Below are positions 45,116-49,038 of a stretch of 64,000 bases of DNA, one piece after another. Position numbers and translations under genes: made by a program. The notes beneath the pieces are model-generated. The model did not search any database. It was not told the origin of the DNA and saw only the letters and a list, made by a program, of their open reading frames with translations. The stretch is from an uncultured Anaerobiospirillum sp. (GTDB lineage: Bacteria > Pseudomonadota > Gammaproteobacteria > Enterobacterales > Succinivibrionaceae). Within the stretch, counting starts at the first letter, position 1; each line of letters starts with the position of its first letter. The stretch lies in assembly GCA_944390115.1 (NCBI GenBank), contig CALXOW010000006.1, forward strand, positions 22,758 through 86,757, read 5' to 3'.

Positions 45116-46789
45116 ATGGCAGTGACTTTTGTTAAACCCGAGCTTAATCAGGTAATTAAGCGCAAGAGCGACGGGGCTATGTTCCGCGTCATTGCCGATT
45201 GTGACGAGTACAGCTTGATTTATCGCCTGCCCACGCTCGATGACTTGCTTAATCTCATCAACTGCGACTTTGATGACTACGATGAGCTCTGTAGCCGTTA
45301 TGCTCAATGGCTCAAGGGCGACTCAACAGTCACGCCGTTGCTTTTTTCCGAGAACCTGCCGTCTCAGCGTGACTTAAGCACGGACCTTGGACTGCTCAAG
45401 GCTTTACACGATATGAGCTTAAGTCCCTGGAATGAGCTGGGGGAGTGGCAGCTCTCGCGCATCTACGTTAAGCGCCCGTACGTTAAAAGCGATGACGACG
45501 ACGACGATTACTATGGTCGCTATAATCGTTATGAACACTACTACGATTATGACGAAGATTACGACGATGACGACGAGGTCGATCCGGCGATTGCGCAAGC
45601 GTTAGAGTGGGATGAGGTCGATTTTGTCCGTGACCCCTTTGCTCCGCTCCTGCATACCCACCAAAACCGCTGGGAGCGGGTCAAAAGCCGCGATCTTTAT
45701 GCTTTGCTTGCACCGCTTGATTTTGCGCGAGTTTGGAAGATCATTGAAGGAAGTGGTAGCTCTTTCTTCAACAATATGGGCGTGCGCTTAGGTATGCCCG
45801 CGCACTTGGTGCAGCACCTGCTCCATGTCTGGTGTATCTTCGGCGGCTGCAAAGAGGGGTTAATTTATGCCCAAGAATTGCTGTCCGCTCAATCCGCGCT
45901 GACAGCATACCAAGATGACGAGCTAGGAGCATGGAGCTATCGTCTGTGGTTGAGCTGGAGTTATCAGCTGGCGATGCAGCTTGATGTCAGAAAGGAACAG
46001 AAGGTTAAGCCTGAGTTTTGGGATGAATCATTTGCTGAGTATGGTTCTGCCATTATGAGTGCTTTTGGCGGGCCTAAATACTCACTGCTCTATGCGGTTA
46101 AGCACAGCACTTTGTTCCAGCCACAGCTTGAGCACTTTGAGGCGATCTGTCACAGTCTAAATTCCTTTGATGGTAAGAACGTCAAGCGGGCCGAGCTTGA
46201 GACCTATGGCATCGATCCTAACTTCCTAGGCTGGGTTTTGCCGTTGCCCTGCAAGGCAGGAACTACTCTGCCTGCCGAGCTTAAGGCTAAGCTTCAAGCT
46301 GAGCTTGACTTTTATTGCATGGGCCTAGCTCTAGAGCAAGCGGTTTTGGCTTACAAAAAGGGTGAAGTGCCCGTAGGGGCAGTGGTGCTTAGCTCTTTTG
46401 ATGAGGGGTTGCGCTTGCTAGCGGCAAAAGGCAACAGCGTGATTAGTGAGCACGACCCGTCGGCGCATGCGGAGATCTTAGCCTTGCGGGCAGCGGGCAA
46501 GGAAATGGATAATTATCGCCTCGGCGGCACCACGCTTTATGTAACCTTAGAGCCGTGCTGCATGTGCGCCATGGCCGCGATTCATGCGCGGGTTGATCGC
46601 ATTGTCTATGGCGCGGTCGATCCGCGCACGGGCGCCTGTGGGTCGGTGTTTGATTTGGTCAATGATCCGCACCATAACCACCACGTTGAGGTGGTAGGGG
46701 GCGTACGGGCGCAAGAGTGTTCTCAGCTCTTGAAGCGCTTCTTTACCGAGCGCCGGGAGCAAAGTCGTGAGCAAGGTGATGCCGATTAA
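45116..46789 (+). CDS. tadA: TadA-type tRNA adenosine deaminase fused to an uncharacterised N-terminal region
   Basis: A 557-residue fusion. The C-terminal ~160 residues are an intact TadA domain, which converts A34 to inosine in tRNA-Arg(ACG). Zinc ligands are His451 in SAHAEILALR and Cys481/Cys484 in EPCCMC, and the catalytic Glu is Glu453; EVPVGAVV and IVYGAVDPRTGACGS also match TadA. The first ~395 residues are unlike normal TadA (about 165 aa in total). They contain a D/Y-rich stretch near residues 123-155 and conserved segments such as HVWCIFGG and AFGGPKYSLLY. These are shared with the next gene, 11 bp downstream. Start ATG 45116 follows GGAG and matches the paralogue's start. Confidence 0.88.
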   Translation: MAVTFVKPELNQVIKRKSDGAMFRVIADCDEYSLIYRLPTLDDLLNLINCDFDDYDELCSRYAQWLKGDSTVTPLLFSENLPSQRDLSTDLGLLKALHDMSLSPWNELGEWQLSRIYVKRPYVKSDDDDDDYYGRYNRYEHYYDYDEDYDDDDEVDPAIAQALEWDEVDFVRDPFAPLLHTHQNRWERVKSRDLYALLAPLDFARVWKIIEGSGSSFFNNMGVRLGMPAHLVQHLLHVWCIFGGCKEGLIYAQELLSAQSALTAYQDDELGAWSYRLWLSWSYQLAMQLDVRKEQKVKPEFWDESFAEYGSAIMSAFGGPKYSLLYAVKHSTLFQPQLEHFEAICHSLNSFDGKNVKRAELETYGIDPNFLGWVLPLPCKAGTTLPAELKAKLQAELDFYCMGLALEQAVLAYKKGEVPVGAVVLSSFDEGLRLLAAKGNSVISEHDPSAHAEILALRAAGKEMDNYRLGGTTLYVTLEPCCMCAMAAIHARVDRIVYGAVDPRTGACGSVFDLVNDPHHNHHVEVVGGVRAQECSQLLKRFFTERREQSREQGDAD

Positions 46790-46800
46790 GGGGAAAAGTG

Positions 46801-49038
46801 ATGCAAGTGTCATTTGTGGCGCCTAAGCTCGGGCGCGTGCTGTATGATCAGGCGAACAATACTTATTTCCGCGTGATTGAGGAGCGCAGCAAATATCTCG
46901 TGCTGTATGAGTTGCCGGATATCGAAGATATTCTCGAGCTGTGTCATGTATCACAAGCTCAATATGATGAGCTCTGTGAACGTTATGATAAGTGGCAGAG
47001 CGGTGATGAGAGCATCACCCCGGTTTTCGCCAACGGCCAGATTGCAGGTGGTTCTCAGGCTAAAAAACCAGATGATCCTGCCCCTCGTTATATGGTTTCT
47101 GATCAAGCGCCAAATACCAAGCCGGATAAAACTCGGTTACCGCGCTCTAAGCGCGCGAAGGCGGCAGTTTTAGCTAAAGCTCAGAAAGCAGTTAAAACTG
47201 GTCCTACCTCATGGCAGGTGCGTGATGATAGAGCTTTGCTGGCGGCTTATAACAGCTTAGAAGGGCGTTATGTCCTGCTGTGGGAGGACTGGGATCTATA
47301 TGATGTCTACTCTAATAAGGATAGCGATGCCTCGCTTGAGTTGACTTTGGAGGAGTTGACTGAGTGTGAAGATCCGGTGGCGCCTCTTTTGCGCAGCGCG
47401 CAAAATGAGGCTGAGGCAACTAAGATTGCAGCACTTGCTCCCTTAGTTGCTGATCTCGATCTGGTGGCTTTGCGCAATGCCAACGCGCAGATGAATGGCA
47501 ACTATTTCTATCGCATTGCGCTTAATTTCAAGGTACCTACGGGCTTTGCGCGGCATTTGTTGCATATCTGGTGCATCTTTGGTGGAACCCCTGAGGGGCT
47601 CATGTACACCAAGGAGCTCCTCGCCATCCAAAGGTGTCCCAACAATTTTGGCTTTCTGCCCGATGAGCTGAGGTTGCTTTTCTTCCCATCCGTAGAGCAT
47701 TGGGCCCAAGACTTTTTCTGGACTAATCTATTTGACTTGATGGCGCGCAAGTTCTTGTGGAATTATCCGCATGCAGGCTTGGTTTGGGATGGCCGCCTAA
47801 CTCAAGAAATAATGTATACCATTTGGGATCAAGCCATCTACGATGATTTTGGTGCTGCCATTATCGAGGCTTTTGGCGGTCCTAAGCACTCGCTTTTATG
47901 GCAGTTCAAGCACACTCCGCGCTTTGCTCCTGATAATTTTGCTTCAGACTACGTCAGGACCGTAATGGAAGCGCTTATGCGCAAACGCACCGACCATAGA
48001 GGGTGCTTACTTGCAGCCCAAGATATGGATCGCTTCGGCATCAATCCGTTCTACGTTCACTGCTTGATGCCGTTGCCGCGTAAGCCTGGCTTTGTGTTCG
48101 ATAAAACAACACGCTTATTAATGTTAGCTGAGGTTGACTTCTATGGTATGGGAAACGTGCTCGAATACGCAGCTCATGCTTTAGATAAGGGGTTTTACCC
48201 TGAAGCCATAGAGATACTAACACCACCGGAACAGGGTTGTGCCACCGATCTTGATGCTAATTTGACTGGCCTATCTAGGGTCAACAAAAGGCAGGCACCA
48301 TTAAAGCAGCTTGTGGTGGCGGCGCTGCTCCTCGTTCAAGAAAAAAATGATGACCGGCTGAGTGGTGCTTTGGTGTTCACCCTCACCGAACCAGATCTGG
48401 AATCAGTCAAGCTACTCGTTGCTAGGGGCGTTGCCCGCATTGTCTATGGCGTAGCTGATCCTAAGCACGGTGCCTTTAGCACCGGGGCTTTTGCCCAGCT
48501 CGGTGTCGAGCTTGAGGTCAGCGCCGGTATTCGTGCCCAAGAGTGCCAGCACCTGATTGACCTCTACTACAAGGCGCAACGCCAAAAGATCGCGCGTGCC
48601 CAGCGCAAAAAGCCAGTAACCACAGCTCAAGCCAATGCTGAGCTTGCTGCTTTTGCGCGCAAGGTCGAGCAAGAATATGCCGCCAAGCAGGCAGCGTCCG
48701 AGCAAGCTACTGAAACGAAGTCTGCTGCTAAGAAGACAGCTGGGACCAAAGCTTCTGCCAAGAAGGAAACTGAGGCCAAAGCTCCAGCTAAGAAGCCTGC
48801 GATTAAGAAGGCAAGTGAGGCCAAAGCCACAGCCAAGCAGCCAGCTGCTAAGAAGGCAACTGATGCCAAAGCCCCAGCTAAGAAGCCTGCTACCAAGAAG
48901 ACAACTGGGACTAAAGCTATAGTGAAGAAGCCAGCTGCCAAGAAACCAGCTGCTAAGAAGGCCGAAGCTACTGAGGTACAAGCAGCACCGGTTAAGCGCG
49001 GGCGCCGCCGTGTCGCTGACGTTCAAGAGCAGCAATAG
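46801..49038 (+). CDS. Paralogue of the TadA fusion with degenerate deaminase domain and H1-like tail
   Basis: A 745-residue protein, paralogous over its N-terminal ~480 residues to the TadA fusion just upstream (matching HIWCIFGG, AFGGPKHSLLW, FGINPF and LPRKPG). The TadA-like part follows (about 455-615), where ARIVYGVADPKHGAFSTG and GIRAQECQHLIDLYY match the partner. The zinc and catalytic residues are gone: the His and Glu positions read Pro500 and Lys502, and the two Cys positions read Asp532 and Ser535. The last ~110 residues are Lys/Ala-rich repeats (AAKK, APAKKPA) ending KRGRRR. Start ATG 46801 follows AAGGGG. It is probably co-expressed with the active copy; a partner role is inference. 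Codon use is less biased than in nearby genes. Confidence 0.85.
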   Translation: MQVSFVAPKLGRVLYDQANNTYFRVIEERSKYLVLYELPDIEDILELCHVSQAQYDELCERYDKWQSGDESITPVFANGQIAGGSQAKKPDDPAPRYMVSDQAPNTKPDKTRLPRSKRAKAAVLAKAQKAVKTGPTSWQVRDDRALLAAYNSLEGRYVLLWEDWDLYDVYSNKDSDASLELTLEELTECEDPVAPLLRSAQNEAEATKIAALAPLVADLDLVALRNANAQMNGNYFYRIALNFKVPTGFARHLLHIWCIFGGTPEGLMYTKELLAIQRCPNNFGFLPDELRLLFFPSVEHWAQDFFWTNLFDLMARKFLWNYPHAGLVWDGRLTQEIMYTIWDQAIYDDFGAAIIEAFGGPKHSLLWQFKHTPRFAPDNFASDYVRTVMEALMRKRTDHRGCLLAAQDMDRFGINPFYVHCLMPLPRKPGFVFDKTTRLLMLAEVDFYGMGNVLEYAAHALDKGFYPEAIEILTPPEQGCATDLDANLTGLSRVNKRQAPLKQLVVAALLLVQEKNDDRLSGALVFTLTEPDLESVKLLVARGVARIVYGVADPKHGAFSTGAFAQLGVELEVSAGIRAQECQHLIDLYYKAQRQKIARAQRKKPVTTAQANAELAAFARKVEQEYAAKQAASEQATETKSAAKKTAGTKASAKKETEAKAPAKKPAIKKASEAKATAKQPAAKKATDAKAPAKKPATKKTTGTKAIVKKPAAKKPAAKKAEATEVQAAPVKRGRRRVADVQEQQ

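Follow-up and report, generated by a model that had tools for sequence, protein, structure and literature searches.

We analysed a 64,000-nucleotide window of the genome of an uncultured Anaerobiospirillum sp. (GCA_944390115.1, contig CALXOW010000006.1, positions 22,758 to 86,757), in which two adjacent, co-oriented genes encode a fusion protein with an intact C-terminal TadA deaminase domain (45116..46789, + strand, 557 amino acids (aa)) and a paralogue in which this domain has lost its catalytic residues (46801..49038, + strand, 745 aa); these are referred to here as the active and dead proteins. Our best explanation, with a probability of roughly 0.45, is that the pair forms a bacterial heteromer of an active deaminase and a pseudo-deaminase that is convergent on eukaryotic ADAT2/ADAT3, with the complex, its tRNA binding and its substrates being what we infer from comparative evidence. 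A first-pass annotation of this DNA had proposed such a heterodimer or a new nucleic-acid-editing complex. The sequence features that it described were borne out, except for a slight offset in the position of two residues, and its interpretation was partly supported overall, neither of the two results that would have overturned it having been obtained: the heterodimer is put forward as a hypothesis, now with support from phylogeny, selection and the tRNA repertoire.

The active protein appears to be the only TadA of the cell. Its residues 395–557 (46298..46786, +) form the TadA domain, and residues 398–553 matched the TadA equivalog model NF008113/PRK10860 with 176 bits (cut-off 150). The HxE and PCxxC motifs comprised the residues named in the first-pass annotation, His451 (codon 46466–46468), Glu453 (46472–46474), Cys481 (46556–46558) and Cys484 (46565–46567), all on the + strand. 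These residues were kept in 4/4 active copies, which come from the source genome (G000; 3.64 Mb, 92.85% complete) and three other pair-bearing genomes of the same genus (G005, G006 and G009; completeness of the four: 93, 95, 95 and 86%). When the source genome was searched with the TadA model, the active fusion was the single match above the cut-off; four further matches fell below it and were taken, by reading their sequences, to be a RibD-like protein, a lipoprotein-like deaminase, the dead copy and a dCMP-deaminase-like protein. A separate, normal tadA would have counted against the first-pass proposal; none of the four pair genomes yielded a stand-alone TadA, either with the TadA model in the source genome or in a search of 57 genomes of the family with the active protein. 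In G005, G006 and G009 the active protein matched the gene array itself plus four weak matches (expect values (E) of 1.6e-9 to 1.9e-5), three of which we presume to be RibD-like by analogy with G000. A normal tadA hidden by incomplete assembly is less likely, since it was absent from four separate genomes that are 86–95% complete. The gene for the substrate tRNA-Arg(ACG) was present in the source genome (ARAGORN on tRNA loci).

The active protein was also matched by Pfam MafB19-deam (99.1 bits), which is what could be said for a function in toxin-immunity, defence or a mobile element. We consider this very improbable: the same family scored higher, at 100–131 bits, on 6/6 TadAs of other genus members submitted, the active fusion was the only TadA found, the pair has a constant chromosomal place in its clade, and its N-terminal region (N-region) had no relative among viral contigs. 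Active copies ended about 10 residues past the deaminase domain and carried two clade-specific columns (38 and 44 in H57 numbering) in a 24-row alignment of active domains, for which 9 of 23 relative loci gave no usable cut and L040, whose genome already supplied a genus row, was left out.

The C-terminal domain of the dead protein (residues 443–606; 48127..48618, +) has degenerated within a recognizable deaminase. Against NF008113 the dead protein scored just 19.6 bits (E 6e-4, residues 519–603), and a profile of six dead C-domains from the four species found E. coli TadA (1z3a) with an E of 5.9e-9; its match to mouse ADAT3 was weak (E 0.04). Profile–profile comparison of dead with active domains gave a probability of 99.1 (E 7e-19, 143 columns). 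The flanking TadA features that had been noted in this protein were indeed kept, as positions common with the active domains, such as EP before the zinc loop, R..VY and D...GA, and there were 17 invariant columns among the six dead C-domains. The two Cys positions read Asp532 and Ser535, as first reported, whereas the His and Glu positions, previously given as Pro500 and Lys502, correspond to Lys502 and Leu504 in a multi-sequence alignment inspected by eye; this register shift of two residues changes nothing, because HxE is absent either way. HxE and the first Cys were absent from 6/6 dead units and the second Cys from 4/6 (by eye). An AlphaFold model of residues 1–630 had a mean predicted local distance difference test score (pLDDT) of 78.1 and a predicted template modelling score of 0.77, with a pLDDT of at least 85 in 11 of the 16 ten-residue blocks between 441 and 600. 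Among the 50 of 306 Foldseek matches listed for the dead C-domain, all were deaminases; natural bacterial TadA chains had template modelling (TM) scores by target of 0.69–0.80, with S. aureus TadA best (0.77–0.80) and E. coli TadA at 0.78, and ADAT3 chains were weaker (0.38–0.39). The dead C-domain is therefore predicted by modelling to keep a TadA-like fold, in line with the deaminase-like structure that the first-pass proposal required.

The two genes are closely spaced, with 11 base pairs between the stop codon of the first and the ATG of the second (46801; an alternative GTG lies at 46798), and a Shine-Dalgarno-like AAGGGG (46788..46793, +) ahead of the second start overlaps the first stop codon. 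In the source genome the pair follows argD and is itself followed by a convergent dsbB, two names that we assigned by reading the neighbouring sequences. Co-occurrence across the clade, which the first-pass annotation had suggested looking at, held: long matches to the dead protein were confined to G000, G005, G006 and G009 (4/11 genus and 4/57 family genomes), 15 other family genomes gave only short matches over the TadA-like part, and all four genomes with one copy had the other, the active and dead copies forming two groups. The arrays read active–dead in G000 and G009, N-region-only gene (359 aa)–active–dead–dead in G006, and active plus a 1504-aa frame holding two dead units in G005. Upstream, argD precedes the array in G000, G005 and G009, and the G006 contig begins just ahead of it; downstream, dsbB is found in 4/4 pair genomes. 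The array occupies the same chromosomal site across the clade, and the arrangement is not due to chance, because it recurs in three other species.

Both proteins begin with the long N-region that had marked them as paralogues, residues 1–394 in the active protein (45116..46297, +) and 1–442 in the dead one (46801..48126, +), which are 30% identical, with 17 columns invariant over 11 copies. In the active protein it comprises about 394 aa with an acidic linker (the most acidic 40-mer, from residue 125, has a net charge of −16). It matched no known family: no significant match came from Pfam (best E 0.03, one member) or PHROGs (best E 0.08, one member), and an N-region profile found no match among PDB sequences at E 10, ADAT3 included. 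A 295-genome sample of the order gave only G000, G005 and two weak matches (E 5.8e-4 and 0.008), the stronger of which falls in what we take, from its sequence, to be a NAD-glutamate-dehydrogenase-like open reading frame (ORF); a 398-genome sample of the phylum gave the source genome only. In a scan of GTDB species genomes the long family was found outside the source only in three Anaerobiospirillum records, the uncultured isolates BRZ_KP bin38 and BRZ_D bin91 and Candidatus A. stercoravium.

What stays constant across these arrays is the N-region, as seen in the N-region-only gene and two dead copies of G006 and the two dead units in the G005 frame. The dead paralogue might therefore act through it, as a scaffold, a regulator or a binder of something else, its deaminase domain being no more than a structural remnant, while a homodimer of the active protein does ordinary TadA work. 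This explanation, which we regard as unlikely, would also account for the 17 invariant N-region columns and for the lower conservation of the dead C-domain, which was 36% identical between G000 and G009 against 43% for the N-region. It fits less well with the retention of the dead C-domain in 6/6 units over deep divergence, with 17 invariant columns of its own, and with a ratio of nonsynonymous to synonymous substitution rates (dN/dS) in that domain that resembles that of the N-region in the single pair of species that allowed the measurement.

That pair was G000 and G006, for which alone the synonymous rate dS was <1 over domains; in the comparisons made with G005 or G009 it was >1 or saturated. 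Between these two genomes, dN/dS in the dead protein was 0.24 for the N-region, 0.29 for the C-domain and 0.29 for the C-terminal tail, and in the active protein it was 0.26 for the N-region and 0.13 for the TadA domain. The dead copy is thus under purifying selection between the two closest species, and we rejected the idea that the dead gene is a pseudogene, as frames are intact and dN/dS shows constraint. In the active gene, dS between G000 and G006 was 0.12 in the N-region and 0.37 in the TadA domain (window 45116–46297 against L071:1175–2371), and the low N-region value suggests recombination or gene conversion.

The N-region tree separated the 4 active from the 6 dead copies at 100/100, which we read as a single old duplication that predates the divergence of the four species and not as repeated local decay; the N-region-only copy of G006 fell on the active side with unresolved placement. 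A tree of the C-domains also grouped the dead units (99/99), on very long branches, and left the active copies unresolved; the history is read from the N-region tree only. When eight outgroup rows were included in a TadA tree, 5/13 outgroup loci having given no cut, the four pair species formed one clade (100/99); an ArgD tree used 7/8 loci and contained just two pair genomes, G009 not having been picked up.

The variation within the arrays could be neutral. Here the active fusion would be self-sufficient, the dead copies would be drifting duplicates or partners held by a neutral ratchet, and tRNA-Pro(AGG) would be read unedited. Array copy number and length do vary, and dead C-domains were 32–76% identical to that of G000, against 66–91% among active domains. 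The seven other genus genomes also have TadAs with N-terminal extensions (275–689 aa in all, not matching the N-region of the pair), which makes lengthened TadAs usual in this genus. Such a by-product is nonetheless distinctly unlikely, given that dead copies were retained in 4/4 species whose dS in the comparisons with G005 or G009 was so high, and given the purifying selection, intact frames and dead-side basic tail. The extensions of the seven other TadAs looked mutually unrelated by eye (L066–L069, L072, L073 and L075), except that those of G001 and G008 were alike; that of G010 is Lys/Ala-rich.

The tRNA repertoire of the pair genomes is consistent with a heteromer of possibly widened tRNA range. 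Run on 59 tRNA matches in the source genome, ARAGORN gave 36 isoacceptor types, two of which have adenosine at the wobble position (A34): tRNA-Arg(ACG), which most bacteria possess, and tRNA-Pro(AGG). In this set, which is incomplete and also without Ile, Glu and His tRNAs, no tRNA-Pro(GGG) was seen. A pattern search found A34 tRNA-Pro in 12/57 family genomes and, within the genus, in exactly the four pair genomes (4/11). With other wobble bases in place of A, this pattern found tRNA-Pro(UGG) in 11/11 genus genomes, so the seven zeros for A34 are not pattern failures; in the family it found non-A34 tRNA-Pro in only 34/57 genomes, so genes outside the genus are missed and the A34 count there may be low too. 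G34 tRNA-Pro was found in 1/57 family genomes. In a 295-genome sample of the order, 159 had A34 or G34 tRNA-Pro; among the matches listed all were G34, and the known A34 genomes were not among them. The tRNA-Pro(AGG) genes (L114/L142 (G000:C19), L141, L143 and L144) were identical over 77/77 bases in the four pair genomes, stood in tandem behind tRNA-Pro(UGG) and differed from it at three positions including the wobble base, indicating that tRNA-Pro(AGG) arose by tandem duplication of tRNA-Pro(UGG).

The Lys/Ala-rich tail described on the dead protein was present, as 139 aa with a net charge of +22 (48619..49035, +). Basic tails ended the dead-side genes in 4/4 genomes (net +22, +17, +14 and +7, and +16 at the end of the G005 frame), and a strict Lys/Ala test was passed by 1/39 non-overlapping window frames of at least 150 aa, namely the dead gene. 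Such tails are not unique to the pair, because the RibD-like protein of the source genome (L001:346–1866, −) also has a Lys/Ala-rich C-terminal tail. RibD-like matches at the same query position lay in frames of 518–846 aa in 11 genus genomes versus about 370–430 aa in other genera. Also seen were a lipoprotein-like protein (L004:329–1156, −) whose N-terminus resembles a signal peptide and whose deaminase domain carries HGE and PCxxC motifs, which is possibly an exported deaminase, and, by reading of the sequence, a GrpB-like region fused to a cytidine-deaminase-like domain (L005:910–1809, +).

Bacterial TadA is a protein of about 165 aa. Like it (E. coli 1z3a, S. aureus 2b3j), the active C-domain meets the equivalog model, carries HAE and PCxxC and belongs to the sole TadA found; unlike it, the active protein is 557 aa long, begins with a novel N-region and is followed in tandem by an inactive paralogue. 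Bacterial TadA is described as a homodimer (PMC9643335, PMC7713142) and ADAT2/3 as an active with an inactive TadA homologue, where the N-domain of ADAT3 captures RNA together with a basic KR-motif on ADAT2 (PMC9643335). The pair resembles ADAT2/ADAT3 (Tad2/Tad3) in having an active and an inactive paralogue, the latter with an additional N-terminal region, along with a basic tail and a genome that encodes at least two A34 tRNAs. The differences are that the Anaerobiospirillum pair occurs in one bacterial clade only, has the N-region on both proteins, bears its basic tail on the dead protein and not on the counterpart of ADAT2, and is known here from sequence and predicted fold where ADAT2/ADAT3 is a heterodimer. 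Enzymes with many tRNA substrates tend to be heteromeric, and ADAT specificity is considered to have broadened through duplication (PMC6382703). The RNA site and the dimer interface overlap in S. aureus TadA (PMC7713142), and by our own reasoning a changed partner could therefore change substrate choice. A bacterial parallel is S. pyogenes, which also has a second A34 tRNA, although it is tRNA-Leu(AAG) and not tRNA-Pro; its recombinant TadA alone edits both A34 tRNAs, while E. coli TadA does not edit tRNA-Leu(AAG) (PMC11472039). No description of a bacterial active/inactive TadA pair, or of an Anaerobiospirillum TadA, was found in the titles or displayed abstracts of the papers listed by searches of the open-licence PMC literature.

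Several observations weigh against the heteromer proposed here. The zinc ligands are gone from the dead domains, save the second Cys in two G005 units, whereas yeast ADAT3 is reported to bind zinc and to need it for stability (PMC7713142). Model confidence in the dead protein dropped to 58–67 at residues 481–500 and 511–520, around the lost HxE, and the model is not fully independent, because its input alignment contained active copies. The association with tRNA-Pro(AGG) counts as one co-occurrence, since the four species form one clade. A34 tRNA-Pro was also found in family genomes with no pair, namely 5/5 of genus g3, G027, G028 and G052; 7 of these 8 had a TadA match and G015 had none, so relatives with an ordinary TadA carry this tRNA as well. 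Among proline codons, CCC accounted for 8, 15, 12 and 18% in the pair genomes and for 2–5% in the 7 others (13–32 ORFs sampled per genome), but G+C differs between the genomes, and a codon regression gave mean residuals of +1.14 for Pro and −1.33, the opposite way, for Val, so that the higher CCC share tells neither for nor against the proposal. Finally, in Salmonella a mutant A34 tRNA-Pro decodes CCC, the codon ending in C, nearly like wild type without deamination (PMC3711424); editing of tRNA-Pro(AGG) may therefore not be needed, as the neutral explanation would have it.

In our best explanation, TadA gained a region of about 390 aa at its N-terminus in the ancestor of an Anaerobiospirillum sub-clade, and the fusion gene was duplicated in tandem. 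One copy remained the only TadA, and the other lost catalysis and zinc binding while keeping a deaminase-like fold and bearing a basic tail. As the likeliest mode of action, the active domain would pair with the pseudo-deaminase through the TadA dimer surface or the shared N-regions, and the pseudo-deaminase would supply a tRNA-binding surface (basic tail and N-region) and release the choice of substrate from the constraint of a strict homodimer. One substrate would be tRNA-Arg(ACG), and the additional A34 tRNA of the clade, tRNA-Pro(AGG), is a plausible second. That this is an independently evolved heteromeric wobble deaminase, with a zinc-less, basic-tailed pseudo-TadA, whose duplication let the clade edit tRNA-Pro(AGG) and so repeated the ADAT2/ADAT3 transition, is a fuller claim that we hold to be rather doubtful.

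How the two-subunit, many-tRNA eukaryotic enzyme originated from a strictly homodimeric deaminase of one tRNA is an open question. If our proposal is true, Anaerobiospirillum would offer a bacterial duplication, relatives without it and a newborn A34 tRNA, and the transition would become testable in a simple system; it would also provide deaminase designs, a long fusion and a zinc-less partner, unlike the TadA structures compared here.

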